Source: a bacterium
GTDB taxonomy: Bacteria; Elusimicrobiota; Elusimicrobia; UBA1565
DNA: 33,344 nt
Direction of reading: 5' to 3'
Assembly (NCBI GenBank): GCA_004322435.1
Contig: SCTT01000387.1
Coordinates: 1-33,344, forward strand
Part shown: positions 1-14,059 of the stretch, one piece after another
How positions within the stretch are numbered: the first letter of the stretch is position 1
Layout of the letters: each line of letters begins with the position of its first letter
Made by a program: the position numbers and the translations under genes
The notes under the pieces: model-generated
What the model saw: the letters and a program-made list of their open reading frames with translations, nothing else
The model's database searches: none
What the model was told of the DNA's origin: nothing

Positions 1-232
1 GGCCTTCCTTGGCGTACTGCCTGAGGAAGGCCCCGCCGCCGTCGACGAGTCCCTGCAGGGCTACCACGTGGACAATCGCGTCGTCATGTTCGCCAAGCCG
101 TACCTCTCGGCGGAGGAACGGAAGGCTTTTCTAGGGGAATTGGAGGGGGAGCTTAGGCGGCTGGGGGATGGGGACGAGAAGAAGGGGGCTGAGGTCGTGG
201 AGAAACGCGTGAAAGCCTTCTGGGGCCTTTAG
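1..232 (+). CDS. C-terminal fragment of an unrecognised protein
   Basis: An open frame enters from the left edge and ends at TAG 230-232, giving about 76 residues (codons begin at base 2). It is not in the ORF track because its start lies outside the window. The fragment is soluble-looking and charged, with an acidic and basic C-terminal helix (GELEGELRRLGDGDEKKGAE) ending VKAFWGL. I recognise no family. GC-rich codon use suits the bulk of the window rather than the following gene. It ends 46 bases before the next start, with no convincing terminator between. Confidence 0.6.
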   Translation, partial: AFLGVLPEEGPAAVDESLQGYHVDNRVVMFAKPYLSAEERKAFLGELEGELRRLGDGDEKKGAEVVEKRVKAFWGL

Positions 233-242
233 CGTCCTGCCC

Positions 243-271
243 TGGACAGAAAGTCACCCCCCAAACAATAC
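243..271 (+). promoter_or_regulatory. Putative promoter of the nuclease-helicase gene
   Basis: TGGACA (243-248), a 17-base spacer and CAATAC (266-271) form a moderate sigma70-like promoter. The -10 ends only 7 bases before the ATG at 279, so the transcript would be nearly leaderless. No Shine-Dalgarno sequence is visible before that ATG. Inference from spacing only. Confidence 0.4.
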
Positions 272-278
272 TCCCGAC

Positions 279-2198
279 ATGTCCACAGACTCGTGCGGTT
301 GGAACTCTGATTTTCAGGCCCTCGGAATGGAGAGTCCGCGCGTCATCCGCATTGCACTCGAAGACTTCGTTAGAAATGTCTCAGCGGAGCAACTTAAGGC
401 CTGGGATGAAGAGATCGATATTCTCCAGCGCGAGACGGGGCATTCTATCGTCAGGGATTCCGCAACTAGACTCTATACCGCGATTCTCGAATATCAACTT
501 CCCTTGGAGTCGCGTCGCCCTGACGTCATATTCCTCCAAAATGGATCTGTCGTCGTAGTCGAATTCAAATCCAAAGGGCGCGCTTCACGCGCCGACCTCG
601 ACCAAGTCGCCGCCTATGCTCGTGATCTCCGCTGCTATCACCGTGAATGTGCCAATCGCGTCGTTCATGCCATCCTCATCCCGACTCGACTGGATCGACC
701 GGGCCGCGAAATCGACGGTGTTCATGTCGCGCCGCCCCACAAACTCCCCGAACTAATCCTTCGCCTGGCAGCCCAAAGCGCTCCAACCATTACACCGGAG
801 CTTTTCTTGCGCGAGGATGCCTATTCCCCCTTACCAACACTGGTCAAGGCAGCCAGAGAGCTATTCCAATCAAAGACCGTGCGAAAGGTGTGGCGCGCCG
901 CGGCTTCCACCGATCCCGCCGTTGACGAAATCACAAGAATTGCCCACGAAGCGCATGCGACAAAGACGCGACGCCTCGTACTCCTAACGGGCGTCCCGGG
1001 GGCGGGAAAGACCCTCGTTGGCTTGCGGTTGGTCCACGCCAAGTTTCTCGACGATCTTGCCGTAGCTAGGGCCGATGGGAAACCCGCGTCACCGGCAGTT
1101 TTTCTCTCCGGCAATGCCCCGCTCGTGCAGGTCCTTCAGTATGAGCTTCGTAGTGCCGGAGGCGAAGGCCGCACCTTCGTCCGGGACGTTAAGAAGTACG
1201 TGTCGACCTATGCCGGCAGACCCAATCTGCGCCCCCCCGAACACCTCCTGGTCTTTGATGAAGCCCAAAGAGCGTGGGACGCGGAAAGGGTTGATGCCGG
1301 CCATCAAGGGGACAGCATCGCCACACGAGGTAAGTCAGAGCCTGAACACTTTGTGGAGTTTGCGGAGCGCATCCCGGATTGGTGCGTCATCGTCGGCCTC
1401 ATCGGAAGTGGCCAGGAAATCCACGTGGGCGAGGAGGGAGGGCTTGGCCAGTGGCGCAAGGCGGTCGAGCAATGCAAGGAGTCTGAGAAATGGGTCATCC
1501 ATGCCCCCCAACAACTAGATGCCATTTTCTCAGGAAGCTCTGCCAAAATCCAGCACCACGACTCTTTAAATCTGACAAAAGAAATCCGATACCACCTGAC
1601 AACCCATATCCATCAATACGTGGAGGGCCTCCTCGAGGGCGCGCCAAGTTCAGAGCTTAAAGAACTTGCGACACAACTTTCGGTTGCTGGTCATCGATTC
1701 CTGGTCACACGAAGCTTGGAGCTTGCCAAACAATACGTCCGAGATCGATACTTGGAGAATGCGGATGCTCGTTATGGTTTAGTTGCGTCGGCCAAAGACA
1801 AGCTTCTCGAAAACTGTGGGGTGCCAAACTCCTTCCAAGACACCAAGCTGCTTAAGGTCGGTCCCTGGTTTTCGGATGGGGAGGACAGCGCGCTTTCCTG
1901 CCGACGGCTCGACAAGGTCGTTACGGAATTCCAAGTACAAGGTCTCGAGTTGGATTGCGCCGTCTTGGCCTGGGGATCCGACTTTATATGGAACGGATCA
2001 AGGTGGTCGAATGATCTGGCGCGTGGATATAAAGACAAGAATGCCGTCAAAGACCCGTTCAAACTCCGTCTGAATTCTTACCGTGTTCTATTGACGCGGG
2101 GACGAGACGGAACAGTAATTTTTGTGCCTGAAGACGCCAGGCTGGACGCGACACATCAACGCTTGTTGGAATGCGGCATGATAGGATTGGAGACCTAA
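279..2198 (+). CDS. PD-(D/E)XK nuclease / DUF2075 helicase-like ATPase
   Basis: A 639-residue protein in two parts. The N-terminal third has a RecB-like nuclease signature: PD at 81-82, the core VVVEFKSK with E95 and K97, then Q109-x3-Y113. The rest is a DUF2075 (schlafen group 3-like) P-loop ATPase. It has Walker A GVPGAGKT (238-245), Walker B LLVFDEAQRAWD (about 323-334), and a C-terminal helicase motif with LLTRGRDGTVIFVP. Proteins of this class are predicted nucleic-acid translocases and are often found in defence loci; here the gene stands alone, with no methylase or partner. Many A/T-rich codons set it apart from its neighbours and suggest horizontal acquisition. Family call is firm, biological role inferred. 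Confidence 0.85.
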   Translation: MSTDSCGWNSDFQALGMESPRVIRIALEDFVRNVSAEQLKAWDEEIDILQRETGHSIVRDSATRLYTAILEYQLPLESRRPDVIFLQNGSVVVVEFKSKGRASRADLDQVAAYARDLRCYHRECANRVVHAILIPTRLDRPGREIDGVHVAPPHKLPELILRLAAQSAPTITPELFLREDAYSPLPTLVKAARELFQSKTVRKVWRAAASTDPAVDEITRIAHEAHATKTRRLVLLTGVPGAGKTLVGLRLVHAKFLDDLAVARADGKPASPAVFLSGNAPLVQVLQYELRSAGGEGRTFVRDVKKYVSTYAGRPNLRPPEHLLVFDEAQRAWDAERVDAGHQGDSIATRGKSEPEHFVEFAERIPDWCVIVGLIGSGQEIHVGEEGGLGQWRKAVEQCKESEKWVIHAPQQLDAIFSGSSAKIQHHDSLNLTKEIRYHLTTHIHQYVEGLLEGAPSSELKELATQLSVAGHRFLVTRSLELAKQYVRDRYLENADARYGLVASAKDKLLENCGVPNSFQDTKLLKVGPWFSDGEDSALSCRRLDKVVTEFQVQGLELDCAVLAWGSDFIWNGSRWSNDLARGYKDKNAVKDPFKLRLNSYRVLLTRGRDGTVIFVPEDARLDATHQRLLECGMIGLET

Positions 2199-2407
2199 TG
2201 TAGTTGTTTAAATTCTCCTTCTTTTTACAAGGCAATCTGTAAAATTGACCCTGGTCGTGCGGGTGTCTCCCGCAATCTGCGGCATCCCCTTCCTTTCGGG
2301 GCCCATGTTGGGGGGACCTCCATTACGAATTTTGCCGTGCCGTACCCCCCAAGGCCGTCCCCTCTCGTCGTAATACCCCCGTTGCACCAAATTCCTATCC
2401 TCTCCCC
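2199..2407. other. Intergenic stretch, no gene seen
   Basis: About 200 bases between the low-GC nuclease-helicase gene and the thermonuclease gene. The first 50 bases are A/T-rich, probably the trailing edge of the acquired segment. The rest has several G6/C6 runs (for example GTTGGGGGGACC and GTACCCCCC) that loosely recall the 47-bp elements further right but lack the GGGAAC-N17-CGTA core. TATCCT at 2396-2401, 6 bases before the next ATG, may be the -10 of the thermonuclease gene. The small ORFs here are not convincing. Confidence 0.4.
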
Positions 2408-2983
2408 ATGCAGCTCCTCCTCCTCACCCTCGCCCTCTCCGCCGCCGCCCACCCCGGGGGCGTCGACGCCGAAGGCTGCCACCGCGACAAGGCCGCCGGC
2501 ACGCGCCACTGCCACCCCGAGCGCGCTGGGACCCGGGCTCCGGTCAAACCCTCCCCGGTCAAAGAGCGTTTCTCCGGCCAAGTCGTCTCCGTCAAAGACG
2601 GCGACACCGTCGAGGTCCTCCGCGCCGGCAAGGCCGTCCGCATCCGCTTAGCCGAGATCGACGCCCCCGAGTCCCGCCAAGACTACGGCACGCAAGCCAA
2701 GAAGTTCCTCTCGAGCCTCGTCTTCGGAAAGACCGTCTCGGTGACCGTCACCGACACGGACCGCTATGGGCGCCTCGTCGCCCACCTCGAACTCGCCGAC
2801 GGACGCGACGCCAACAAGGAGCTGCTCAAGGCCGGCTGGGCGTGGTGGTACCGCCAATACTCCAAAGACGACGAGCTGGGCAGACTCCAGGACGAGGCGC
2901 GCGCCGCGCGGCGCGGCCTGTGGGCCGGCAGCGCCCCCGTCGAGCCGTGGCTGTTCCGGCGCAAGGCCGGCGGCCGAGTCTGA
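2408..2983 (+). CDS. Exported thermonuclease (SNase-like, YHYH-type N-terminus)
   Basis: A 191-residue staphylococcal-nuclease homologue. Residues 1-14 form a short signal peptide. Next comes a His/Cys-rich segment (GCHRDKAAGTRHCH, 23-36), often found ahead of SNase domains and possibly metal-binding. The SNase fold spans about 55-180 and keeps the catalytic set: DGDT (D64, D66), R80 and D85-E88 in RIRLAEIDAPE, and R122 in DRYGR. The family is Ca2+-dependent and cleaves DNA and RNA, here presumably in the periplasm or outside the cell. The ATG lies 6 bases after a TATCCT hexamer, suggesting a leaderless mRNA. It is followed after 21 bases by the tautomerase gene in the same direction, so the two are probably cotranscribed. 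Confidence 0.9.
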   Translation: MQLLLLTLALSAAAHPGGVDAEGCHRDKAAGTRHCHPERAGTRAPVKPSPVKERFSGQVVSVKDGDTVEVLRAGKAVRIRLAEIDAPESRQDYGTQAKKFLSSLVFGKTVSVTVTDTDRYGRLVAHLELADGRDANKELLKAGWAWWYRQYSKDDELGRLQDEARAARRGLWAGSAPVEPWLFRRKAGGRV

Positions 2984-3004
2984 ACAAAAGCCCAGGAGAC
3001 CCCC

Positions 3005-3205
3005 ATGCCCTTCATAAACCTCAAGATGACCCCCGGACCGACGCCCGAACAGAAGGCGCGCTTCATCGAGGCCGTCACGAAGCTGGCCGCCGAGGTGCTC
3101 GGCAAGAACCCCGCGACGACGCACGTCGTCATCGAAGAGGTGCCCGCCGACAGCTGGGGCATCGCCGGCGAGACGGTGGCCGCGCGCAAGAAGCGCGGCG
3201 CCTAG
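3005..3205 (+). CDS. 4-oxalocrotonate tautomerase family protein
   Basis: A 66-residue protein of the usual length for the family. It begins MPFINLKM, so the catalytic Pro becomes the N-terminus after Met removal. The later segment HVVIEEVPADSWGIAGE matches the conserved C-terminal half. These enzymes interconvert enol and keto acids (2-hydroxymuconate type) in aromatic breakdown, but many small paralogues have unknown substrates and nothing nearby indicates an aromatic pathway. A good Shine-Dalgarno (CAGGAG, about 10 bases upstream) fits translation as the second gene behind the thermonuclease. A small hairpin (CCTTCC-GTCGA-GGAAGG, 3219-3235) follows the stop and runs into the first copy of the dispersed element. 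Confidence 0.9.
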   Translation: MPFINLKMTPGPTPEQKARFIEAVTKLAAEVLGKNPATTHVVIEEVPADSWGIAGETVAARKKRGA

Positions 3206-3233
3206 AATCCGCCGCCGGCCTTCCGTCGAGGAA

Positions 3234-3280
3234 GGGAACTAATTCGGGGGGTAAAACGTACGTGTGGGTATGGGCTCCCC
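3234..3280 (+). repeat. Dispersed GGGAAC-N17-CGTA element, copy R1
   Basis: A 47-bp element whose layout is GGGAAC (3234-3239), an A/T stretch, a G6 run, CGTA (3257-3260), a purine-pyrimidine-alternating tract, and a closing CCCC. It matches copies at 4822, 6933 (minus) and 18160. The distance from GGGAAC to CGTA is exactly 17 in all four. It lies upstream of toxin-antitoxin pair 1, with 19 bases between its end and the -35 box. The core resembles an ECF-sigma promoter (-35 GGAAC, -10 CGTA), but conservation also covers the spacer and downstream bases. Confidence 0.85.
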
Positions 3281-3299
3281 AACAACTCAGCCGCCGCCA

Positions 3300-3328
3300 T
3301 TGACGACGAGTAGCTTTCACGCTACTCT
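3300..3328 (+). promoter_or_regulatory. Promoter and operator of toxin-antitoxin pair 1
   Basis: TTGACG (3300-3305), 17-base spacer, TACTCT (3323-3328). An inverted repeat GAGTAGC-TTTCAC-GCTACTC (3308-3327) fills the spacer and overlaps the -10. That is the expected place for autorepression by the antitoxin or the toxin-antitoxin complex. The -10 ends 13 bases before the GTG start, leaving little or no leader. Confidence 0.75.
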
Positions 3329-3341
3329 AGGGATGTGACCG

Positions 3342-3677
3342 GTGGAAGGCGGCGGGGTCGAGCTTCTCCTCTATCGGACCGCTTCCGGGGACTGTCCCGT
3401 CAGGGCTTGGCTGGAGTCCCTGGACGCGCAGGTCGAGGCGCTCGTCGCCAAGCGCTTTGACCGAGTCCGGCGGGGGCTATTCGGGGACACGAAACTCTTA
3501 GGGGGCGGTGTTTGGGAGCTCAAAATAGACGTCGGGCCGGGCTATCGAATCTACTACGGACTGGACGGCCCGCGGGTCGTCGTTCTTCTATGCGCCGGTC
3601 AAAAGGACGCGCAGGAAAGGGACATCGCAAGGGCGCGGGCGTACTGGGAGAGTCACCTGCGGCAGAAGGGTCTATGA
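3342..3677 (+). CDS. HigB/Gp49-like toxin, pair 1
   Basis: A 111-residue member of the phage-derived Gp49-like (DUF891, RelE superfamily) toxin family. Known members are ribosome-dependent mRNA endonucleases. The family signature is clear: CPVRAWLESLD near residue 20, then VWELKIDVGPGYRIYY, VVVLLCAGQKDAQERDI and a C-terminal helix. The start is GTG at 3342, chosen because the promoter ends at 3328 and no in-frame ATG fits; the nearby ATG at 3333 is followed at once by a stop. The stop overlaps the antitoxin start by 4 bases (ATGA), the usual coupling in toxin-first modules. The toxin resembles that of pair 2 more than that of pair 3. Confidence 0.9.
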   Translation: MEGGGVELLLYRTASGDCPVRAWLESLDAQVEALVAKRFDRVRRGLFGDTKLLGGGVWELKIDVGPGYRIYYGLDGPRVVVLLCAGQKDAQERDIARARAYWESHLRQKGL

Positions 3678-3967
3678 GCGGCACGGTCAGATATGAGGAT
3701 TATCTTCACGAGCGGCTCCGGAACCCGGAATTCGCCGTCCTGTATCTCAATGCGAGCTTGGATTCCGACGACGACGGCGACTTCCTGTTCGCCTTGGGCG
3801 AGGTGTCCCGGGCCAACGGCGGCGTGCGTCCGCTAGCCGGGAAGGCGGGGCTCAATCGCGAGCACCTGTTCCGCATGCTCTCGAAGACGGGAAACCCCGG
3901 GCTCCACAGCCTAAGGCAGATCCTCGATGCTCTGGGATTCCGTCTAGAGCTAAAGCGGGCGGCCTAA
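3674..3967 (+). CDS. HigA-like antitoxin (addiction module antidote), pair 1
   Basis: A 97-residue protein starting at the ATG that overlaps the toxin stop. The ORF track starts at 3512 inside the toxin frame, which I reject. It fits the 'probable addiction module antidote' family: an N-terminal YEDYLHERLRNPEFAVLYLN segment, then an XRE-type helix-turn-helix around AGKAGLNREHLFRMLSKTGNP, ending LRQILDALGFRLEL. It should neutralise the upstream toxin and repress the promoter through the 7-6-7 inverted repeat at 3308. It is convergent with the next gene, with 8 bases between stops. A GC-rich hairpin around 3955-3978 may stop transcription from both sides. Confidence 0.9.
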   Translation: MSGTVRYEDYLHERLRNPEFAVLYLNASLDSDDDGDFLFALGEVSRANGGVRPLAGKAGLNREHLFRMLSKTGNPGLHSLRQILDALGFRLELKRAA

Positions 3968-3975
3968 AGCCCGCC

Positions 3976-4728
3976 CTACATCCGCGCGCGCAGGTAGGCT
4001 TCCTCGGCCGGGTCCATGAAGGCGCTCAAATCCCCGCGGCGCCCGGCCTGCCATTCGATGTACACGAGCTCCACGCAGACGGCCCAGTACTCCCGGCCGG
4101 ACTTGGCGGCGTGGAGGTCCTCGCCGTGGCGGCGCGGCAGGCGCAGCGCGCCCAACAGCTGCCGCGCCCGCGGGGAGAGCGGCCGGCTGTCGTCGTCCTC
4201 GGGGCCGCGCGAGCGCCAGACCTCCACCCAGAACGCCGCCAGCGCGTCGCGGTAGGCGGGGGTGTCGTGGCGCAGGGCCATGAAGGCGTTGACCGTGCCG
4301 CGGTCGATGAACTCGAGCGTGTGAGCCAGCTCATGGGCGAGGATGGCGGCCATGTCCTTGCCGGCGGGGGCGTAGAGCGTGATGGCGCCGTCGCCGGCGC
4401 TCGTGCCGTCGGCGGGCGAGCTTGCGGGCAGGTCCTCCCAGACGAGCTTGGGCGGGCGGGCCGGGGCGACGAGCTTGGGCATGCGGCCGAGGAGGCCCGC
4501 CAGCGTCGAGAGCACCTCGCGGCGGCGCTCTTCGGGGCAGGGTTTGCCGGAGCAGGTGACGGATACGGTCTCGGGGGTGAGGCCGTAGGCGGCCAGCGCG
4601 GCGGTTTGGCGGGCGTCGCGCGCGGCGGCGAAGTCCGCCACGGCCGCGCGGGCGCGAGCGGCCGGGACGGCCATTTGGGCCCGCGCCGGAGAGGCGAGCA
4701 GGAACGGGAGCAGCCAGGCGGCCCTCAT
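3976..4728 (-). CDS. Exported putative zinc metallopeptidase-like protein
   Basis: About 250 residues from the ATG at 4728. The ORF track starts seven codons earlier, but MRAAWLLPFLLASPARAQ from the inner Met is a clean signal peptide (cleavage near ARA/Q). A TACCCT hexamer (4735-4740) lies six bases upstream of this ATG, suggesting leaderless expression. The mid-protein segment AAILAHELAHTLEF carries HExxH-like spacing (HELAH), the zinc-binding motif of gluzincin and metzincin peptidases. A later ELVYIEW could supply a glutamate ligand. No named family is recognised beyond that. It stands alone between two toxin-antitoxin pairs on the opposite strand, with no operon partner. Confidence 0.75.
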   Translation of the reverse strand: MRAAWLLPFLLASPARAQMAVPAARARAAVADFAAARDARQTAALAAYGLTPETVSVTCSGKPCPEERRREVLSTLAGLLGRMPKLVAPARPPKLVWEDLPASSPADGTSAGDGAITLYAPAGKDMAAILAHELAHTLEFIDRGTVNAFMALRHDTPAYRDALAAFWVEVWRSRGPEDDDSRPLSPRARQLLGALRLPRRHGEDLHAAKSGREYWAVCVELVYIEWQAGRRGDLSAFMDPAEEAYLRARM

Positions 4729-4821
4729 AGAGTCAGGGTAGCCGCCCAAGCCCCCGCGGGGCAGGGCCGTGCGGCCTAGGGGAAAACCGGCGTTGGGCCT
4801 ACCATCCGGACCCGAGGACGA

Positions 4822-4868
4822 GGGAACTAAAACGGGGGGTCAAGCGTACGTGTATGTATGAGCACCCC
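4822..4868 (+). repeat. Dispersed GGGAAC-N17-CGTA element, copy R2
   Basis: 47 bp, aligned end to end with R1: GGGAAC (4822-4827), AAAA, G6, TC, CGTA (4845-4848), then a 17-base strictly alternating purine-pyrimidine tract starting at GCGTACGTG, and closing CCCC. It ends 7 bases before the -35 box of toxin-antitoxin pair 2. Confidence 0.85.
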
Positions 4869-4875
4869 AAGGGGC

Positions 4876-4903
4876 TTGACGTATGTAACCTATAGGTTAT
4901 ACT
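4876..4903 (+). promoter_or_regulatory. Promoter and operator of toxin-antitoxin pair 2
   Basis: TTGACG (4876-4881), 16-base spacer, TATACT (4898-4903). A perfect 14-bp palindrome TAACCTATAGGTTA (4886-4899) covers the spacer and the first bases of the -10. The ATG follows 4 bases after the -10, so the toxin mRNA should be leaderless. The operator is unrelated in sequence to that of pair 1. Confidence 0.8.
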
Positions 4904-4907
4904 TGTT

Positions 4908-5234
4908 ATGAAGGCTCCCTTCGAGCTGCGGCGATACCGGGACTCCGATGGACGGTGCCCGTTTTCTGAATGGATTTCGGGTTTGGACGACCCGACGGCG
5001 GCGCGGGTGATGGCGTACGTCGACAGGATGAAGGGTGGGAATTTTGGGAAGTCCAAGCCGGTCGGAAGCGGCGTCTCGGAGCTCAAGATCGACTTCGGGC
5101 CGGGCTTCCGGGTGTATTACGTCCGGGACGGCGACGTCATCGTCGTGCTCCTCTGCGGCGGGAATAAGGGTTCGCAGGGAGCGGATATCCGGAAAGCGAT
5201 GGGATACGCGGCCGATTACAGGGATAGACTATGA
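4908..5234 (+). CDS. HigB/Gp49-like toxin, pair 2
   Basis: A 108-residue Gp49-like/RelE-superfamily toxin. It has CPFSEWISGLDD near the N-terminus, SELKIDFGPGFRVYY in the centre, and IVVLLCGGNKGSQGADIRKA near the C-terminus, matching toxin 1 segment for segment. The presumed activity is ribosome-associated mRNA cleavage, from family knowledge. The start is fixed by the promoter: the -10 ends at 4903 and MKAPFEL follows at once with no room for a ribosome-binding site. Its stop overlaps the antitoxin start by 4 bases. Confidence 0.9.
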   Translation: MKAPFELRRYRDSDGRCPFSEWISGLDDPTAARVMAYVDRMKGGNFGKSKPVGSGVSELKIDFGPGFRVYYVRDGDVIVVLLCGGNKGSQGADIRKAMGYAADYRDRL

Positions 5235-5545
5235 AACGCAAAGCGTCCTACGTTTCGCATGACGAGGAACAGATTCGCGAGTTCCGCGCGCGCCCGAAGC
5301 TCGCGTTGGAGTACCTCAACGCCGCCATCCAGGTGGCATTCGAGGAGAACGACTCCGAGCTCGTTCTCACGGCCCTGGCCACGGTGACGAAGGCCTACGG
5401 CATCAACCGTGTGGCCAAGGACGCCGACCTCAAGCGCGAAAGCCTGCACCGTATGCTCTCCCGGCGGGGAAACCCGGAGTGGAAGAGCATGTTCCGCGTG
5501 ATGAGGGCGCTTCATGTCCGCCCCAACATCGTCCCGGCCATTTAG
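5231..5545 (+). CDS. HigA-like antitoxin (addiction module antidote), pair 2
   Basis: A 104-residue antidote protein coupled to the toxin by an ATGA overlap. It shares the layout of antitoxin 1: an N-terminal region with RPKLALEYLNAAIQVAFEEND, then a helix-turn-helix around VAKDADLKRESLHRMLSRRGNPEW, then a final helix. It should bind the toxin and the TAACCTATAGGTTA operator. The two antitoxins are clearly related but diverged, so the pairs are probably old paralogues or independent arrivals rather than a recent tandem duplication. The next gene starts 54 bases on from its own promoter. Confidence 0.88.
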   Translation: MKRKASYVSHDEEQIREFRARPKLALEYLNAAIQVAFEENDSELVLTALATVTKAYGINRVAKDADLKRESLHRMLSRRGNPEWKSMFRVMRALHVRPNIVPAI

Positions 5546-5587
5546 GGGATGTAGGAGCCGGCAGGGCCGCGACGCGGGCCGCGGCGC

Positions 5588-5593
5588 TATAAT
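5588..5593 (+). promoter_or_regulatory. Consensus -10 box of the HAD hydrolase gene
   Basis: A perfect TATAAT in a very GC-rich setting, ending 6 bases before the ATG at 5600. No clear -35 is seen at the right distance. The spacing puts the transcription start at or next to the A of the ATG. Confidence 0.6.
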
Positions 5594-5599
5594 CCCGCT

Positions 5600-6253
5600 A
5601 TGACGCCCCCGAGGGCTTTCTTGTTCGACATGGACGGCGTCCTCTGCCACAACATGCCCGCCCACGAGGAAGCCTGGCGGCGCTTCTTCCGCGCCCGCGG
5701 CATCGAGATAGACTTAAAAGACTTCCGCGAGAACACCATGGGCCGCCCCACCCGCGAGGTCCTGCGCTATTACTTGAAGCGCGACGTGCCTCCCGCCGAG
5801 GCGGCGGCGCTGGCCCACGTCAAGGAAACCCTCTACCGCAGGCTCTACGGCCCCAAGCGCCGCGCGCTGCCCGGACTGCGCGCCCTGCTGCGGGAAGGCC
5901 GGCGCCGCGGCTGCCGCCTGGGCGTGGGCACGGGCTCCAAGGACGACAACGTGACGTTCATCTTAGACGGGATGAGCCTGCGCGCGAGCTTCGACGCGGT
6001 GGTCGACGGGGGGATGGTCAAGAAGGGCAAGCCCGACCCCGAGACCTGGCTCATCTTGGCCGACAAGCTCAAGACCCGCCCCAAAGACTGCGTCGTCTTC
6101 GAGGACTCGCTTCTGGGCGAGGAGGCCGCGCGCCGCGCCGGGATGGCGGTGGTGGGGGTCACGACCTCGCACCGGGCCCAGGAGTTCCGTCACGCGCGTC
6201 TGCGCGTGCGGGACTTTCGAAGACTGAGCGTCCGCCGGGCCCTAGCGGAATAA
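5600..6253 (+). CDS. HAD-superfamily hydrolase, beta-phosphoglucomutase/phosphatase-like
   Basis: A 217-residue HAD protein with all four motifs intact. Motif I is FLFDMDGVL (nucleophile D10, acid-base D12), motif II is GVGTGSKD (T111), motif III is KKGKPDP (K144), and motif IV is VVFEDS (D169). Residues about 16-85 form a helical C1 cap, and GKPDP plus FEDS are typical of the beta-PGM/GPH branch. It probably acts on a small sugar phosphate or similar phosphomonoester, or as a phosphosugar mutase; the substrate cannot be read from sequence. It is monocistronic, ending seven bases before the convergent stop of antitoxin 3. The start is chosen from the TATAAT box just upstream. Confidence 0.88.
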   Translation: MTPPRAFLFDMDGVLCHNMPAHEEAWRRFFRARGIEIDLKDFRENTMGRPTREVLRYYLKRDVPPAEAAALAHVKETLYRRLYGPKRRALPGLRALLREGRRRGCRLGVGTGSKDDNVTFILDGMSLRASFDAVVDGGMVKKGKPDPETWLILADKLKTRPKDCVVFEDSLLGEEAARRAGMAVVGVTTSHRAQEFRHARLRVRDFRRLSVRRALAE

Positions 6254-6260
6254 AGCCGGG

Positions 6261-6569
6261 TCAGCCGTGCGGCAATTCGGCCCGCAGCGCCTTGCAGACC
6301 TTCGCCACCAGGGCCAGGTTCGGGGCGACCTTCCCGGTCAGCAGGTTGTAGGTCGAGCGCCTGGGGATGTGGTGCCGCTTCTCGAGTTGGGTCTTGTTGA
6401 GGTGGCGCAGGCTGGCGGCCAGGACCTCCGCGGCGGAGTCGGCGTCGCCTTCTTCGAGGCATTCCATGAAGGTCTTGAAGACCAGTTCGCTGTTGGCCAG
6501 GGTCTTCGACGTGTCGTGGTCGAGGAGGCGGCCCTTGCCGGTCTTCTTGCGGTCAGTTCTCGAGGTCAT
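6261..6569 (-). CDS. Helix-turn-helix antitoxin, pair 3
   Basis: A 102-residue second gene of the third module. Its start lies 17 bases inside the toxin 3' end. The C-terminal half looks like an XRE-type DNA-binding domain (LNKTQLEKRHHIPRRSTYNLLTGK would span recognition helices, then NLALVAKVCKALRAEL). The N-terminal half is charged (TSRTDRKKTGKGRLLDHD) with a helix EGDADSAAEVLAAS. It is more distant from antitoxins 1 and 2 than they are from each other. It presumably represses the promoter through the perfect 10-2-10 inverted repeat at 6904-6925. An earlier internal start is possible. Confidence 0.82.
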   Translation of the reverse strand: MTSRTDRKKTGKGRLLDHDTSKTLANSELVFKTFMECLEEGDADSAAEVLAASLRHLNKTQLEKRHHIPRRSTYNLLTGKVAPNLALVAKVCKALRAELPHG

Positions 6570-6870
6570 GTTCGTACTCCGCCTTCAGGCGTCGCGCTTT
6601 GCGGATGTCGCCTTTCTGCGTGCCCTTGAAGCCTCCCCACAAGACGAGGACGTCGATCCCCTGGATGCGTTTGCGCGAGTAGTAAATGCGCATGCCGTTG
6701 GCCCATTTGAACTCCAGGAGCCCCTCGCCAAGGTCCCGCGAGGCGCCGAAATGGCCTTGTTTGGCCCGGTCCAGGCGGGCATCGACCCGCGTCCGTTCGG
6801 TCTCGGAGAGCTCGGAGTACCAGTCATGGAATTCGGGGGTCTTTTTGAGGACCAGGGAGGGCTCGCTCAT
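6553..6870 (-). CDS. HigB/RelE-like toxin, pair 3
   Basis: A 105-residue RelE/HigB-like toxin of the Gp49-like group. It has FHDWYSELSETERTRVDARLDRAK near the N-terminus, then LLEFKWANGMRIYYSRK and VLVLWGGFKGTQKGDIRKA, the same order as toxins 1 and 2 but with many substitutions. It carries more Lys and Arg in the second half, as in mRNA-binding toxins. Toxin-first order is shared with the other two modules. The predicted transcription start is about 25 bases upstream of the ATG, so unlike the other two this mRNA has a short leader (AGGAAG is present but rather far away). Confidence 0.88.
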   Translation of the reverse strand: MSEPSLVLKKTPEFHDWYSELSETERTRVDARLDRAKQGHFGASRDLGEGLLEFKWANGMRIYYSRKRIQGIDVLVLWGGFKGTQKGDIRKARRLKAEYEHDLEN

Positions 6871-6903
6871 GGCACGCTCGAGCCGGAGCTTCCTGGTTCA
6901 ATG

Positions 6904-6932
6904 AGTGTGCCATAAATGGCACACTTTGTCAA
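6904..6932 (-). promoter_or_regulatory. Promoter and operator of toxin-antitoxin pair 3
   Basis: Read on the minus strand: a consensus TTGACA (6932-6927), 17-base spacer, CACACT (6909-6904) as a weak -10. A perfect inverted repeat AGTGTGCCAT-AA-ATGGCACACT (6904-6925) covers spacer and -10, a strong candidate for the antitoxin operator. The TTGACA directly abuts the dispersed element R3. Confidence 0.8.
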
Positions 6933-6983
6933 GGGGTTCGGCTCCATACCTACACGTACGCACGACCCCCTGAAAAAGTTCCC
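6933..6983 (-). repeat. Dispersed GGGAAC-N17-CGTA element, copy R3
   Basis: A 51-bp copy on the minus strand, pointing toward toxin 3 just as R1 and R2 point toward their toxins. GGGAAC is at 6983-6978 and CGTA at 6960-6957, again 17 apart. Between them are TTTTTC, a G5 run and TC; after them GTGTAGGTATGGAGC. Four extra bases before the closing CCCC make it longer than R1 and R2. Confidence 0.85.
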
Positions 6984-7009
6984 TTCTACGTCGGAGGCGG
7001 CAACAATGA

Positions 7010-7061: not shown

Positions 7062-9824
7062 TTACTTCTTGGTGGTCTTGGCCGCGCGGGGCGCGGTCTT
7101 CTTGGCGGCCTTGGCCTTCGCCTTCTCGGCCTTCGCGGCTTCCCGGGCGGCCTTGGCGGCGGCGCGCTCGGCCTTCTTGGCCGCGGCGGCGACCTTGGCC
7201 TCTTCGCGGGCGATGGTCTCGGGGGTCTTGATGCCGCGGCGCTTGCGCATGCCGTTCATCATGTTGGTCATCAGGCTTTCGAAGGGCAGGCGGTCGAACT
7301 CGCCGATGGTGACGCCCTGCATGCCGCGCGGGTAGATGAACCCGAGCGAGCGCCGCACGACGGGCTCGAAGACGCCCAAGACCGAGTAGGGCGCGGCCAA
7401 GGTTTGCCACATGGTCCGGGAGAAGAAGTCGTAGAGCAGGACCTGGACGTCCTTGAGCATGTGCTGCAGGGCGGGCGTCTGGCCGGTCTTAAAGTCCCCG
7501 ATCATGACGTCGAGGCCCTTGTCGGTGCGGCGCGCCAAGACGAGGTCGTAGAGGCCGCGGAAGATGTCGCGGTGGGTGGGCTCGCCGGCCTTGTTGTAGC
7601 GCTCGACGACCATGAGGTTCGGCAGCTCGGTGCCGAGCGAGATGGGGTAGAGCCGCACGGCCTCCTGGAGCTCCAAGTACATGGTCTGCATGCGGGCGTC
7701 CATCGAGTCGCGGTACCCGAGCGCCGACTCGCGGGCCTTGGACATCAGGTGCACCGTCTGCTCGATGCTCTCCTTGTCCCAGATCTGGTGGGCCTTGGCC
7801 TGGAGCTCGGCGTAGGGCGGCAGGACGCCGGTCTTGTTGTAGACCTGCATCGCCCAGTCGAAGGCGGTGTGGGCGACGTGGCCCAGGAGCATGTAGATGT
7901 TCGTGCCGTTGCCGCCCGACTCGTAGAAGCGCTTCTGCTTGAAGGCCTTGATGGAGGAGGCCGACGCCACGAAGTCGCCCACGCGGTTCTCGCGGTAGGC
8001 GCCGAGCATGGCCGCGAGCGCGGTCTCGGCCTTGTCGGCCGCGGCGGTGGCCGTCATCTCTTGGGCGGCGTGGATGGAGCCCGGCATCGCGGCTTGGATG
8101 GAGGGCGACTCGGTGACGGTGACGATCTGCTCGGGGTTGGCGTAGATGCCCTGCTCGACCTCGAGCTGCTCGCGCAGCCAGCCCATCGCGTCCTCTAAAG
8201 TGCCGGGCCGCACGCGCACCGTGCCGTCCGCGTTGACGGTCACGGCGAAGGCGGTGGAGGGCAGGCCGAAGCGGACGATGTTGCGCTCGAGGGCGGTCTT
8301 CAAAGCCTCGGCCGTGACGCCCTTCTTGGGGCGCATCGTGAGGCCGTAGGCCTTGTCCTCGACCACGGCGCCTTCGGGAGCGGCGGCCGCGGCCCCGGTG
8401 CGGAGGATGGCCAGCTGGTGCGGCGCGAAGGTGCGCGAGGCCAGGAGCTTCGGGAAGGCGCCCGAGTAGCCGTAGAGGGTGTTGCCGTCGTTCGAGAGGG
8501 TCAGGAGCTTCCAGCGCACCACGTCGTCGCGCTGCTGGAGCGTGACGCCCTTCTCGATCATCTTCTCGACGTCTTCCTGGGGCTTGTCGGTGAGGAGCAC
8601 GAACGTGACGCCCGACTTCTCGAGCTTGCCCATGTCTTCGAGGATGTCGAAGGAGAGCTTGTCGCCCATGCCGCGCAGGTCGATGAGGACGACGCGGGGG
8701 AGCATGCGGGCCAGGGCCTTTAAGGACTCGGGGACGGTGACGGGGTTGCGGGGGCGGACCGTCGCGGTGGGCTCGACGCCGTTCTCGGGGAGGTGCTGGG
8801 CCTGGCGGTAGGGCAGGTAGTGGAGGACGCGGACCTCGCTGTCCAAGCCGATGACCTTCGGCGCGTTGGCGTTGCGGGAGGCCTTGAAGCGGATCTCGGC
8901 CAAGAGGCGCTGGCGGAGCTTCGCGACCAAGGCGGCCTCGGTCATGCCGCTCTCGAGGCGCGCGATGCTCGCGCCGTAGTAGGCCTTCAGGTCGCGCAGG
9001 TCCAAGTCCTTGATCTTCTTCGTGTCGGCCTCGGTGATGCGGGTCACGAAGAGCATCTTGCCGCCCGACACGACGCGGACCGGGAGCTCCTTCTGGTACT
9101 TGCCCCAGAACCAGGCGCTGCCCTTGTTGTTGATGATGCGGATGGAGGCCGAGACCTGGGAGTTGTAGAGCTTGTTCTTGGCGGCCTTGCCCACCCAGAG
9201 GTCCAAGGTCTCTTCGGCGCCGTTGGCGGCGAAGTCGGCGGCGTCCCGGGCCGTGGCCTCGGGGGCCTCGGTGGAGTCGTCGTCGGAGTTCTTGGGGGCG
9301 GCGACGCCGTTGACGGTCCCGGCGTTCAGGCGGCTCGTGTCGAAGAGGGAGCCGAGCTTCGCATCCATCTGCCCCGGCCGGGACGGGGTCGCGAAGAGGC
9401 GGCCGACGGCCTGCTCGACGACGGCGGAGCGGGCGGCGGCGCCCTCATAGGAGGCGGGCATGCCCTTGGCCGCGGCTTCCTGGGCCGCGGGGAGGGCGCG
9501 GACGTCCGCCGCGGTGAAGACCGCGGACGGCGCGGCCGCGGCGCGGGCGGCCTGGACGGGGAGGGCCGTTGCGGCGGAGCCCCGAGAGGTCACGGCGGCC
9601 GTGGGGAGCGCGGACGGGGCGGACAGGGTCAAGGACGGCGCGGCGACGGCGCCCGACAAGGACAGCGTCGGGGCGAGGGCGGCCGGGGCCAGCGGCGCGG
9701 CGACGGTCCGAGCGCCCACCGGCGCGTGGGTCGTCGGCATGCGCAGCTGGGCGAAGGCGGGCACGCCGTTGGAGGCCGCCAGCGCGGCGGAGAGCAGGAT
9801 GCGAAGCGCTTTGTTGCAGCTCAT
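7062..9824 (-). CDS. Giant exported protein with HAD-like and RecB-like PD-(D/E)XK nuclease domains
   Basis: 920 residues. A signal peptide (1-25) ends PAFA/QLR, followed by about 75 residues of Ala/Pro/Ser linker, two short GRLF and GSLFDTS motifs (141-164) and a region of unknown fold (200-360). About 375-480 looks like a degenerate HAD core (PRVVLIDLRGMGD, then GVTFVLLTDKP). The C-terminal domain (about 640-810) has the RecB-family nuclease pattern: GHVAH (H652), GLYDLV (D760), IGDFKTG (D777 and K779) and Q794-x3-Y798. The tail (about 868-920) is Lys/Ala-rich and positively charged. It is translationally coupled to the upstream gene by an ATGA overlap. Domain calls are by eye; the nuclease call is the stronger. 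I know of no described protein with this architecture; the role is unknown. Confidence 0.75.
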   Translation of the reverse strand: MSCNKALRILLSAALAASNGVPAFAQLRMPTTHAPVGARTVAAPLAPAALAPTLSLSGAVAAPSLTLSAPSALPTAAVTSRGSAATALPVQAARAAAAPSAVFTAADVRALPAAQEAAAKGMPASYEGAAARSAVVEQAVGRLFATPSRPGQMDAKLGSLFDTSRLNAGTVNGVAAPKNSDDDSTEAPEATARDAADFAANGAEETLDLWVGKAAKNKLYNSQVSASIRIINNKGSAWFWGKYQKELPVRVVSGGKMLFVTRITEADTKKIKDLDLRDLKAYYGASIARLESGMTEAALVAKLRQRLLAEIRFKASRNANAPKVIGLDSEVRVLHYLPYRQAQHLPENGVEPTATVRPRNPVTVPESLKALARMLPRVVLIDLRGMGDKLSFDILEDMGKLEKSGVTFVLLTDKPQEDVEKMIEKGVTLQQRDDVVRWKLLTLSNDGNTLYGYSGAFPKLLASRTFAPHQLAILRTGAAAAAPEGAVVEDKAYGLTMRPKKGVTAEALKTALERNIVRFGLPSTAFAVTVNADGTVRVRPGTLEDAMGWLREQLEVEQGIYANPEQIVTVTESPSIQAAMPGSIHAAQEMTATAAADKAETALAAMLGAYRENRVGDFVASASSIKAFKQKRFYESGGNGTNIYMLLGHVAHTAFDWAMQVYNKTGVLPPYAELQAKAHQIWDKESIEQTVHLMSKARESALGYRDSMDARMQTMYLELQEAVRLYPISLGTELPNLMVVERYNKAGEPTHRDIFRGLYDLVLARRTDKGLDVMIGDFKTGQTPALQHMLKDVQVLLYDFFSRTMWQTLAAPYSVLGVFEPVVRRSLGFIYPRGMQGVTIGEFDRLPFESLMTNMMNGMRKRRGIKTPETIAREEAKVAAAAKKAERAAAKAAREAAKAEKAKAKAAKKTAPRAAKTTKK

Positions 9825-12800
9825 GACTTGCCCCCCGTCTTGGTCGTGGTTTTGGCTTTAGCGACCGTCTTAGGCTCGGCTTTCTTCTTCTTGAGGTCTT
9901 CGGGCTTGGCCTCTTCGACCTCGGCCTGGTAGTGCTCCTGGAACTCCTTGTCGGCGCGCATGCGCTCGATGGTGTTGGCGATCTCGCGCACGATGGGGCC
10001 CTGGCGGAGCTTGCCGTTCGGGAGCACTTGGAAGAAGTCGTTGGGGTTGAAGTACAGGTCGAGGCCGCCGTCCTTGTACTCGAAGCGCACGTGGAGCTTG
10101 GCGATCTTCGGGCCCTCGGCCCAGCCGTCGTGCCAGACTCCGTCGGGCCCGGGCTGGGAGAAGCCGACGAGCATCGCCATCGCCAAGGTCCGGGCGTAGA
10201 CGCTGTCGCCGTCGCCCTCGAAGGGCTGCTTGCCGGTGCGGTGCGCGTACACGGTCAGGACGCGGCCTTCGGGCGTGTCGTGCTTCATGAGCCGCGGCAG
10301 GCGGGTCATGACCCGGTAGAGGGTGTTGCCCGCGACGAAGGGCACGGTGATGAGGCTGTGCCCGTCGGTCGTGAGGCCGGCCAGGTTGTGCATGATGTCG
10401 GCGGCCGCTTCCGAGTAGTGCTCGAACATGCGGTTGTAGGTCTCGCGGAAGATGGTGAGGGCCCGCTCGAGGTAGCCGCCCGAGCGCTCCTTCCAGCCCG
10501 CCTCCTGCATCAAGGCGGCCTGCTTGCGGCTGATGAAGACCCCGTGCTGGACGGGCTTCTGCCACATCTGGCGCAGGAGCTTCTCGCCCTGGGTCAAGGT
10601 GGTCAGGCGGTCCTGGCCGCGCCAGACGTTCTCGATCAAGGCGGGCATCAGGCGGTAGAACAGGCTGCCGGTGAACATGCCCATCGGGCCGGTGTAGCCC
10701 TTGTCCGCGCCCCACGTGCCGCCGCCGGCCTTGGCGTCGGCGCCGGGGCCCGGGCGCTCGCCCGAGCGGCGCAGGAGCATGGGAGCCCAGTACTCGTCCC
10801 ACTGGCGGATCTCGCCGAGTTTGACGCCGACGGGCTTGCGGGTCAGGTCGCCCAGCACCACGCCGATCTGCTTTGAGATGTCGGCGTCGCCGGCGGCGGG
10901 GCGGAAGGTGACGCCCTTGGGCCAGGCGGTGGAGAGCTTGAAGGAGCGGTTCGAGTCGCCCAGGACCAAGAAGGTCATGGGGTTGGCGAGGAGCTCCTCT
11001 CCCTTAAAGCGGGTGTCCAGGGCCTCGAACACGCGCTCCAAGGACATGCGCAGGGGCATCGAGCGCACCCACAGCAGGCGCGGGTTCTCGGGGTGGGGCT
11101 GCATGGTGTAGCTCAGCCCCGCCTTCGTCATCGCGCCGTTAAAGCGGCGAGCGACGGTCTTCTTCATCTCCGCGAGCTCGGCGGCCGTCACCGACTCGGG
11201 CAGGGCCAAGGTATAGGTGAAGGCGGAGGCTTCGCTGGGGGCCGCCTGCTCGACGGGGGCGCCGAGCTTCAAGGCCGCCGTGATGTCGGCCGAGGCCTTC
11301 TTGAAGGTCGCCAGCGCCTCGGGGGTGAAGGCGTCCGAGTCGGCCAGGTACGCCTTGGGGTCCTTGGCGTGGGAGTGCAGCGCGATGCGGGCGCCGTTGT
11401 AGCTGACGACGATGGGCGGGTTCTTCTGGCTGACCTTCAGGCGCGAGAGGAGGATCTCGTCGGCCGAGCCGGGGCCCATGTGGGGCCGCGCGGTCATGAA
11501 GACCACGTGCGCGCCGCGGTCGATGACCTTCTGGATGTAGGCGACGGTGGTCTCGGAGGCGGGGCCTTCGAAGACGTCCTCGATGAAGACCACGCGGGGG
11601 GCGGCGGTGACGCCCTCGATGTTCGAGCCGTCCTCGAGCACGGCCTGGGGGAGGTCGGCCGGGAAGCGCAGCGGGCCGACCAGCACGCCGGACTCGGCGG
11701 CCGGGGCGGGCAAAGAGCGGGAGGCGTCGGCGGCGCCCATGAACGTCTTGCCGGCCGGCCGGCCGGCGGGGTGGTACTGGGCGAAGAGGGCGCGCACGCC
11801 GCCGCCCTTCACCGACCACTCGTCGCCGCCCCAGGTCGGGGTCACGGCGCGCTTGCCGGCCTTCTTCAGGGACTTCTGGTAGGCGGCGTCGTTCTGCTCG
11901 CGCTCGACGGCGTTGACCAAGGCCAAGGTCTCGGGGCCCTGGCTGACGGTCCCGTCGGACTCGATGGCCAGGAGCTCTTCGGGGGTGAAGTCGTAGGTGC
12001 GGCTGCGCTTCAAGTATTCCACGTTGACCGAGATGCGGGCGATGACGGGGCCGCCCACCGACTGCTGGTGCCACTTGAGGTCCGTGCCCTTGCGGCCGTA
12101 GGCGCGCAAGGTGGCCAGGGCCACCGCGCGGGCGTTGGCGGCGTCGCCTTCGGTGGCTTCCTCGCGGCCGAAGCGGTAGACGGTGGCCGAGAGCTCGCGG
12201 CCGCGGGCGGAGTTCAGCTTCATCACGCGGTCGACCGACACGCCGAGGACGAACCGGCGGCCGGTGAAGGGCGAGCGCAGGGGGACGTTCGTGAAGACCG
12301 AGCCCTCGGTCATGAGGTTGGCGCGGATCTCGTCTTTGGCCAGCGCGTAGTCGCCGACCTCGCGGTTCCAGAAGTTCGAGACGAAGGTGCGGGCGTGGCG
12401 CAGGTACTCGCCCGAGGCCTCTTTGCCCTTGCGGGCGCGGAAGGAGTCGAAGCCCTTCTCGCCGGTCTTGCCGGCCCAGCGGCGGTCGAGCTCTTCCAGG
12501 AGCAGCTTCTGCGAGTAGTACTTGTTGCCGGCCTGGGCGGCGTCGATGTAGAAGTCCGTCATCAGCGTGTGGAGGACCTTCCAGGTGTAGAGGCCGAACT
12601 GGCCCATGCCGGAGGACTTGGCCTTAGACGAGTCGGCGAACTGGGGCTTCCAGAAGTCGATGTGGCTGCGCAGGTCCGTCATGGAGACTTCGGCGGCGGG
12701 CAGGTTCCACTCGCCGGCGACGGCGGCGATGGCGTCCGTGAGGGAGGCGGCGCCCTCGGGGTTCGCGAGCGCGGCGCCCCGGAAGGGGCCCGGGACGGCG

Positions 12801-14059
12801 GCGGGCGCGGCGGAGATGGTGGACAGGAGCCCCGAGCCGACGAGCAGCTGGGTCTGACGGCCCTCGAGGCCGGGGAAGCGGGTCTCGAGCGCCGCGCCGA
12901 TGCGGCCCAAAGCCATGGTGTGGGTCATCGAGCGGATGACGCCGGCGCGGGGGTCGACGGGGTCGGCCTGCATGCGGTAGGGCAGGCCCGAGGACTTCAT
13001 CGACGCGTTGAACTTCGTGATGAAGGCCTTACGGGTGCCCTCGAGGCTCTCGGCGGGGACGGAGGCGGGGAGCTTGAGCGTGTGGGAGAAGGCGGAGGAC
13101 GCGTCGGCTTGGGCCTCACCGGAGACGCGCAGCGAGGACAGGGCCTTCGCGGCGGCGGCCGAGAAGCGCTCGAGCTCGCGGGCCTCGAAGGCGCCGGCTT
13201 CGCTAGCCGTCGTCCAAGCGCCGCCGGCTTCGACGAAGGAGATGCGCGCGCCGCCGTCCGAGGCGACGGTGATGGGGTTGCCCTCGCGGGGCGTGAGGCG
13301 CGAGAGCAGGACTTCCTCGGCCGAGCCCGTGCCGCGGCTCGGGCGGTCGGTCAAGAAGACGATGTGCACGCCCCGGTCGATGAGGGCCTGCAGGCGCTGG
13401 ACGTCGGACTCGTGGGCGTTGCCGTAGAACGCGTCGTGGACGACCAAGGTGCGCGGGAGGTGGGTGACGATGTCGCTGCCGTCTTTTAAAGCGCGGAAGC
13501 TCAGCTCCGAGCGCAGGCCCGCGTCGGGGCCGGCGGGCTCGCCGCCGCCGGGCGTGACCGCGTCGCCGCCGCCGTTGCCGGCGCCGTTTCCGCCGTCGAA
13601 GGCTTTCCGGCTGCGGCCCGCGACGTCGTTGCCCTTGGCGGGCTTCGAGACGGCGTTGGCGAACTCGCCGGCCGACTGGAGGAGCGTCTCGCCCTTGGCG
13701 GGTGCGGCGGAAGCCGCCTCGGCCTTCGCGGGCAGGATGGAGGGGATGACGGCGGCCGGGCGCGCGACGACGGCGGCTTCGACCCTCACCCTTCCCTCTC
13801 CCGCTCGCGGGAGAGGGCTAGGGAGAGGGGCGGCCGGCGCGGAGAGGGTGGGCGTCACGGAGGGCCCGGAAACACGAATCCCGCCGGGGAGGGCGGGATT
13901 CATCGAGGGGGCGAAGGTGGGCGCCGCAAGCGGCGCGACGGCACGGACGGGAACCGCGGCGGGCGCGGCCCCCGCCCTAAGCTGGGCGAAGGCGGGCGCG
14001 CTGCCCGTGAAGAGATGACAACAGGCGACGAAAAGGGCGAGAGACGCTTTTGGCGTCAT
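9821..14059 (-). CDS. Giant exported protein, tandem HAD-like / nuclease-like repeat units
   Basis: About 1412 residues from the ATG at 14059, chosen for GAGGAA just upstream and because a normal signal peptide (MTPKASLALFVACCHL..PAFA/QLR) then starts the protein. The ORF track adds 12 residues from 14095. After an Ala/Pro linker, the protein appears to consist of two copies of one unit (about 190-730 and 790-1385). Each has a HAD-like segment (RTLVVHDAFYGN..VHIVFLTDRP; RVVFIEDVFEGP..AHVVFMTARP), a cap-like segment, and a region matching the nuclease part of the downstream 920-residue protein. The nuclease D-x-K and Q-x3-Y residues are not preserved in either copy. It ends in a Lys-rich tail. 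One palindromic repeat is embedded in frame near the N-terminus. First gene of the operon; function unknown. Confidence 0.7.
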   Translation of the reverse strand: MTPKASLALFVACCHLFTGSAPAFAQLRAGAAPAAVPVRAVAPLAAPTFAPSMNPALPGGIRVSGPSVTPTLSAPAAPLPSPLPRAGEGRVRVEAAVVARPAAVIPSILPAKAEAASAAPAKGETLLQSAGEFANAVSKPAKGNDVAGRSRKAFDGGNGAGNGGGDAVTPGGGEPAGPDAGLRSELSFRALKDGSDIVTHLPRTLVVHDAFYGNAHESDVQRLQALIDRGVHIVFLTDRPSRGTGSAEEVLLSRLTPREGNPITVASDGGARISFVEAGGAWTTASEAGAFEARELERFSAAAAKALSSLRVSGEAQADASSAFSHTLKLPASVPAESLEGTRKAFITKFNASMKSSGLPYRMQADPVDPRAGVIRSMTHTMALGRIGAALETRFPGLEGRQTQLLVGSGLLSTISAAPAAVPGPFRGAALANPEGAASLTDAIAAVAGEWNLPAAEVSMTDLRSHIDFWKPQFADSSKAKSSGMGQFGLYTWKVLHTLMTDFYIDAAQAGNKYYSQKLLLEELDRRWAGKTGEKGFDSFRARKGKEASGEYLRHARTFVSNFWNREVGDYALAKDEIRANLMTEGSVFTNVPLRSPFTGRRFVLGVSVDRVMKLNSARGRELSATVYRFGREEATEGDAANARAVALATLRAYGRKGTDLKWHQQSVGGPVIARISVNVEYLKRSRTYDFTPEELLAIESDGTVSQGPETLALVNAVEREQNDAAYQKSLKKAGKRAVTPTWGGDEWSVKGGGVRALFAQYHPAGRPAGKTFMGAADASRSLPAPAAESGVLVGPLRFPADLPQAVLEDGSNIEGVTAAPRVVFIEDVFEGPASETTVAYIQKVIDRGAHVVFMTARPHMGPGSADEILLSRLKVSQKNPPIVVSYNGARIALHSHAKDPKAYLADSDAFTPEALATFKKASADITAALKLGAPVEQAAPSEASAFTYTLALPESVTAAELAEMKKTVARRFNGAMTKAGLSYTMQPHPENPRLLWVRSMPLRMSLERVFEALDTRFKGEELLANPMTFLVLGDSNRSFKLSTAWPKGVTFRPAAGDADISKQIGVVLGDLTRKPVGVKLGEIRQWDEYWAPMLLRRSGERPGPGADAKAGGGTWGADKGYTGPMGMFTGSLFYRLMPALIENVWRGQDRLTTLTQGEKLLRQMWQKPVQHGVFISRKQAALMQEAGWKERSGGYLERALTIFRETYNRMFEHYSEAAADIMHNLAGLTTDGHSLITVPFVAGNTLYRVMTRLPRLMKHDTPEGRVLTVYAHRTGKQPFEGDGDSVYARTLAMAMLVGFSQPGPDGVWHDGWAEGPKIAKLHVRFEYKDGGLDLYFNPNDFFQVLPNGKLRQGPIVREIANTIERMRADKEFQEHYQAEVEEAKPEDLKKKKAEPKTVAKAKTTTKTGGKS
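13783..13830. repeat. GC-rich palindromic repeat A, inside a coding region
   Basis: CCCTCACCCTTCCCTCTCCC, GCTCGC centre, then GGGAGAGGGCTAGGGAGAGGG. It is a member of the CCCTCTCCCGC/GCGGGAGAGGG dispersed palindrome family. On the coding (minus) strand it encodes APLPSPLPRAGEGRVRV in the linker of the giant exported protein. Confidence 0.9.

Follow-up and report, generated by a model that had tools for sequence, protein, structure and literature searches.

A horizontally acquired PDC-S41 nuclease-helicase in an Elusimicrobia genome as a candidate restriction factor

A gene close to one end of an Elusimicrobia contig encodes a PD-(D/E)XK nuclease and an SF1 helicase in a single polypeptide and belongs to the candidate defence family PDC-S41. 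We consider it probable that this protein is a horizontally acquired restriction factor directed against invaders, a motor-nuclease acting on foreign DNA for which the choice of target is modular within the family. The stretch of DNA analyzed here (the window) has 33,344 bases and is an entire contig of a MAG of 4.04 Mb in 578 contigs. The features discussed are collected in Table 1.

The original prediction had described a PD-(D/E)XK domain fused to a DUF2075 ATPase, and both halves were recovered. A Pfam scan of the 639-residue protein placed PF09848 on residues 232-617 (E = 4.7e-60), the sole match to this model reported in the assembly. PF09848 is the former DUF2075, now named Schlafen group 3 (SLFN-g3) DNA/RNA helicase. 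The helicase motifs include a Walker A motif, GVPGAGKT, ending at residue 245, the Walker B motif DEAQR (327-331), GxGQEI (376-381), QGLE (554-557) and YRVLLTRGR (601-609). No Pfam model matched the N-terminal part of the protein, which was identified by its catalytic residues and its fold. In an alignment of 66 homologues, R80, D82, E95, K97 and Q109 are invariant (66/66), D82, E95 and K97 forming the D...(D/E)xK triad, and E71 is kept in all 64 homologues that have a residue at that column. The Walker residues of the motor are likewise invariant across the 66 proteins. An AF2 model of the full protein (pLDDT 91.8, pTM 0.90) and a model of residues 1-189 (pLDDT 95) were compared with known structures using Foldseek. 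The N-terminal domain matched the PD-(D/E)XK DNases Cdn1, Can2 and Card1, followed by McrC, Bax1 and DdmD, the E-values starting at a modest 2e-4. The best PDB matches of the full model include SLFN11, RecD of RecBCD, SLFN14 and RecD2, and Dna2 was also among the matches; together with the Walker and SF1 motifs, this RecD-like fold places the motor among the SF1 SLFN-g3/DUF2075 helicases. Searching the PDB by sequence returned no relative of the protein. The ATG at position 279 is favoured as start over that at 327, because homologues have a common N-terminal GW motif upstream of M17.

Table 1. Features in and around the nuclease-helicase gene (positions in the window)
Feature	Position	Strand	Details
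3' end of upstream gene, cut by contig start	2-232	+	homologues in one same-family genome (G005)
Low-GC segment approximating the acquired DNA	about 240-2330		composition scan
Nuclease-helicase gene, PDC-S41 family	279-2198	+	ATG start, 639 aa, no internal stop
N-terminal PD-(D/E)XK nuclease domain (residues 1-189)	279-845	+	catalytic E71, D82, E95-F-K97, Q109
SF1 helicase (SLFN-g3/RecD-like)	972-2129	+	PF09848, conserved motifs, Foldseek
Exported SNase-type nuclease	2408-2983	+	PF00565, YHYH; resident composition
TA pair 1	3342-3967	+	RelE/ParE-type toxin 3342-3677, TIGR02683 8.6e-28; HI1420-type antitoxin to 3967, TIGR02684 2.8e-14
TA pair 2	4908-5545	+	TIGR02683 7.2e-31, TIGR02684 1.7e-16
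TA pair 3	6261-6870	-	toxin 6553-6870, TIGR02683 2.9e-18; antitoxin 6261-6569, TIGR02684 3.2e-08

The protein matches the PADLOC single-gene candidate PDC-S41 (PDLC05014) at 5.3e-129, with residues 32-627 of 639 aligned to profile positions 31-634 of 657. Since the match is full-length, we regard the protein as a new member of an already catalogued candidate family. The domain order is the same and no meaningful difference was seen, although the window copy is divergent, with about 30% identity to a Gram-positive-rich branch and 50-57% to its own clade. PF09848/DUF2075 proteins as a whole have the motor domain in common, PDC-S41 being the subset fused to PD-(D/E)XK; PF09848 matches were found in 11 of 14 control genomes, in six of them above the cut-off. 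The PDC families were derived by 'guilt-by-embedding', and most of them lack validation (PMC12988326). A literature search found no paper naming PDC-S41, no experimental or phage test of it, and nothing on DUF2075 or COG3410 in defence. The family emerges as a widespread and mobile defence candidate in bacteria and archaea.

In composition the gene differs strongly from its neighbours, in agreement with the lower GC and different codon use that had been predicted. Its GC content is 0.557, compared with 0.61-0.77 in the other called genes of the window, and its GC3 is 0.595, compared with 0.75-0.98 (most above 0.88). Measured against the remainder of the window, its synonymous codon use stands out at z = 32, whereas every other gene stays at or below 8.1. 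The edges of the low-GC segment were scanned for repeats (direct or inverted), tRNAs, integrases and RNA families, and none was found. None of the other loci in a set of 86 homologue loci has a GC offset as negative as that of the window gene (-0.141), and where locus GC exceeds 58% the homologue lies below its surroundings in 25 of 29 cases. The distribution is patchy, homologues being present in 7 of 57 genomes in and around the order and in 24 of 341 genomes of the phylum (E <= 1e-20). In a tree of 66 proteins, the sister of the window protein is L070, the only other close Elusimicrobia copy, from another family of the same order. This pair lies inside a clade of 12 proteins (SH-aLRT 98) that mixes about eight phyla and also holds Planctomycetota, Chloroflexota, Acidobacteriota, Armatimonadota, Actinomycetota, Latescibacterota and Myxococcota. 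Across the whole tree, 33 changes of phylum label are required where 17 would be the minimum, and further relatives were found on plasmids and in a few viral records. Composition, patchiness and the cross-phylum tree thus support well the acquired origin that the original prediction proposed. Universal conservation with normal composition and no defence neighbours, the pattern it had named as refuting its reading, is not what was found.

At the L070 locus, the closest homologue of the window gene lies head-to-head, at a distance of 137 bases, with an equally low-GC gene for a 1063-residue protein (L070:6658-9849, minus strand) that carries AAA_11/AAA_12 and a second SLFN-g3-like helicase stretch. 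The two genes were possibly acquired as a pair.

Defence genes surround the relatives of the window gene. Genes were called around 17 Elusimicrobiota relatives, and the nearest 146 neighbours were scanned with PADLOC at a cut-off of 1e-10. These neighbours matched 254 PADLOC families, compared with 17 for a control set of 149 proteins drawn from arbitrary contigs in these genomes; the figures count families and not genes, and as one protein can match many models the ratio is overstated. Defence enrichment around orthologues, one of the checks named in the original prediction, was seen in these family counts. According to Pfam, the neighbours include seven YhcG/DUF1016 nucleases, five ORF6N proteins, three AbiEii proteins, three N6/N4 methylases, DpnI and DpnII. 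Around 28 named relatives, 139 neighbours matched 210 PADLOC models, among them Type I and IIG restriction-modification (R-M), DpdF and PsyrTA, and the relative on an Exiguobacterium plasmid is placed between HsdRSM (Type I R-M) and McrBC. Full-length PDC-S41 membership and these defence-rich surroundings lend good support to the predicted defence role of the nuclease-helicase. At three Clostridia-like loci, a small XRE-type HTH gene, controller-like, was observed 2-22 bases upstream of PDC-S41 (L112:125-328, L114:9681-9890, L122:9685-9897).

Some relatives carry readers of modified DNA. In a Chloroflexi protein (L108:7615-9720) a SAD_SRA domain (5.9e-48) is N-terminal in the same polypeptide, and an SRA-like domain takes the same place in an actinobacterial protein (L094:7905-10298). 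Type IV proteins combining SRA-like and HNH domains adjoin PDC-S41 at L091 (11885-12685), L113 (9074-9925) and L121, and at L075, where the homologue is 52% identical to the window protein, an SRA-like-only protein (11929-12654) is encoded 39 bases downstream. Other loci have a DUF3427-HNH protein (L102, 11749-12675), a SauUSI-like PLD-helicase-DUF3427 protein (L107) or GmrSD (L109) beside PDC-S41. In total a Type IV element, the plasmid McrBC included, is fused or nearby at about 10 of 97 PDC-S41 loci, and reader fusion or adjacency was seen in unrelated phyla. Eleven further actinobacterial loci, one of them 73% identical to L094, showed no SRA-like domain within about 1.5 kb. A general SRA fusion for PDC-S41 was consequently rejected. 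As readers occur at a minority of loci and are missing from these eleven, we view them as sporadic add-ons to a core enzyme that needs none.

A second recurrent companion is a NUDIX protein, listed by PADLOC as PDC-S07. It adjoins PDC-S41 on the same strand at five loci, with gaps of -19 to 75 bases (L071:11977-12378, L097:9493-9879, L102:9508-9939, L144:11857-12243, L093:8110-8496), and at L129 (4541-6892) it is fused to the nuclease-helicase. PDC-S41 and PDC-S07, catalogued separately as single-gene candidates, thus appear from their gene arrangements to work together. SauUSI homologues, too, have been noted to have MutT homologues as neighbours (PMC7641849), which fits a modification-dependent theme. 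NUDIX as a required partner was rejected for the window, where none is present. To our knowledge, the links of PDC-S41 with modified-DNA readers and Type IV enzymes (SRA, SRA-HNH, DUF3427-HNH, SauUSI-like, GmrSD, McrBC) and with PDC-S07 are new. Tentatively, PDC-S41, PDC-S07 and the SRA/DUF3427/PUA-like readers could be parts of a single modular class of restriction systems, dependent on NTP and directed by modification, with a constant motor-nuclease, a swappable reader or NUDIX part, and the window copy as a stripped-down form. We regard the connection between PDC-S41, PDC-S07 and modified-base readers as the most valuable lead of this work, drawn from the relatives and not from the window. 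The reader fusions and the NUDIX-nuclease-helicase fusion make restriction of phages with modified DNA, with specificity set by the reader, testable. If true, a Schlafen-helicase-based branch would be added to Type IV restriction and two catalogue entries would merge.

In the window itself, no reader domain was found in the 639-residue protein or in the genes to its right, and the contig begins 278 bases upstream. The modified-base reader in the protein or operon that marks Type IV enzymes is accordingly present in some relatives and absent from the window as visible. The window copy is a bare orphan form, without a recognised reader, partner or confirmed second defence system in view, and is of interest mainly as a natural reader-less form, in which recognition would fall to the motor-nuclease alone.

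In the mechanism that we propose, the SF1 motor, similar to those of RecD and Schlafen, would be loaded onto foreign DNA, presumably that of phages, and would translocate using NTP, whereupon the tethered PD-(D/E)XK domain would cut this DNA. Target choice would be modular across the family: some relatives may use a reader of the modified-cytosine type (SRA or DUF3427/PUA-like), either as a fused domain or as the product of an adjacent gene, and would then be modification-dependent restriction enzymes resembling Type IV. For the window copy, the presumed target is a DNA end or structure, or else a modification contacted via an unrecognised surface. Such a design has parallels. SauUSI-type Type IV enzymes (PLD nuclease, DEAD helicase, DUF3427) also combine nuclease and helicase in one polypeptide, and their DUF3427-type reader and MutT/NUDIX neighbour occur with PDC-S41 relatives too; the window protein differs in having PD-(D/E)XK instead of PLD, an SF1 SLFN/RecD-like helicase and no reader. 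McrBC and Gabija-type systems similarly couple an NTPase motor to a nuclease, and the McrC domain is among the fold matches, but the window protein is encoded by one gene and uses an SF1 helicase instead of an AAA+ GTPase or a GajAB pair.

The helicase family and fold are shared with the Schlafen group 3 proteins SLFN11 and SLFN14. As RNA-acting SLFN proteins are among the closest motor folds, RNA is a possible substrate. An RNA-directed abortive defence like that of vertebrate Schlafen group 3 proteins could be imagined on this basis, with the helicase as a sensor of nucleic acid and the nuclease cleaving tRNA or other RNA, so that translation stops in infected cells. We consider this unlikely, because the Schlafen RNase core is absent (Pfam gave no AlbA_2-type match in the 639-residue protein) and the nuclease, a PD-(D/E)XK domain, resembles the DNases Can2, Card1, Cdn1 and McrC. 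Moreover, RecD and RecD2 match the motor similarly well, and the accessory domains fused in relatives are readers of modified DNA. A paper on BREX and Schlafen (PMC12839542) concerns Schlafen RNases and not the PDC-S41 helicase.

The matches to RecD, RecD2 and Dna2, and an architecture suited to end resection, would also be consistent with a housekeeping or mobile-element-borne helicase-nuclease for repair or recombination, processing ends in the manner of RecBCD or Dna2 outside defence. Mobility and defence company make this role improbable: the gene is foreign in composition, occurs in few genomes of the phylum and has crossed between phyla, and R-M, Type IV and TA genes recur beside its relatives. 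Equally, the gene might be a decayed passenger, intact in sequence and neither expressed nor functional in its host. Its codon use shows no amelioration, it is an orphan without a partner, and a PDC-S41 gene in the congener G002 is truncated. However, all catalytic and ATPase motifs are intact in an uninterrupted frame of 639 residues, and the protein is 57% identical to another intact Elusimicrobia copy, so we give this reading little credence and retain a functional restriction factor as the preferred one.

The original prediction also placed the gene beside three toxin-antitoxin pairs and suggested that positions 1-7000 could be a small defence-type island. The pairs are real: each combines TIGR02683 and TIGR02684 matches (Table 1), and the 4.04 Mb assembly has no TIGR02683 toxins besides their three HigB/RelE-type ones, which lie together in 3.5 kb. 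The island is borne out in part. By codon use the helicase gene is strongly foreign, and two of the three toxin genes are foreign to a moderate degree, whereas the genes lying between these (SNase, tautomerase, the 3976-4749 gene and a HAD gene) have resident codon use. Apart from PDC-S41, positions 1-7000 yielded no known defence system, and the three TA pairs are the only defence genes clustered around the nuclease-helicase in a view that ends at the contig start. In the congener G002 the block at 7-17 kb is syntenic (74-97% identity), and the flank orthologous to positions 1-7000 holds a HAD gene that is truncated or degraded, and a PIN-domain gene, while the helicase and HigB-type pairs are both missing; because of this we interpret the region as a turnover spot, at which TA and defence genes come and go, and not as a contiguous island. 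That the three pairs act jointly with the helicase-nuclease is very improbable, since the intervening genes are resident, TIGR02683 toxins occur widely in the order whether or not PDC-S41 is present (31 of 54 genomes) and no such TA cluster recurs among PDC-S41 neighbours, despite the concentration of these toxins beside the gene and a copy of TA pair 2 (82-85% protein identity) about 7 kb from the truncated, different PDC-S41 gene of G002 (L063, G002:C28).

At that G002 locus, two YhcG-like genes and one ORF6N-like gene, named by eye from the sequence, lie between or nearby, and SbcCD-like genes are also present. The SNase was rejected as a system component: it is exported, has resident composition, and its orthologue in the congener (75% identical) stands at another locus without the helicase. 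An SNase also adjoins two other PDC-S41 loci, L042 and L035. Beyond the TA pairs, the minus-strand gene at 7062-9824 encodes a 920-residue protein whose N-terminus looks signal-like and whose C-terminal part gives a PDDEXK_1 nuclease-like match (4e-05); a RecB/AddB-like domain would be unexpected in an exported protein. This gene is kept in congeners (76% and 57%), in tandem with the gene for a 1424-residue protein (9821-14095, minus strand), which has no Pfam match and is found next to it in three relatives. The 1424-residue protein shows signs of internal similarity, and its parts cross-match different parts of its orthologues.
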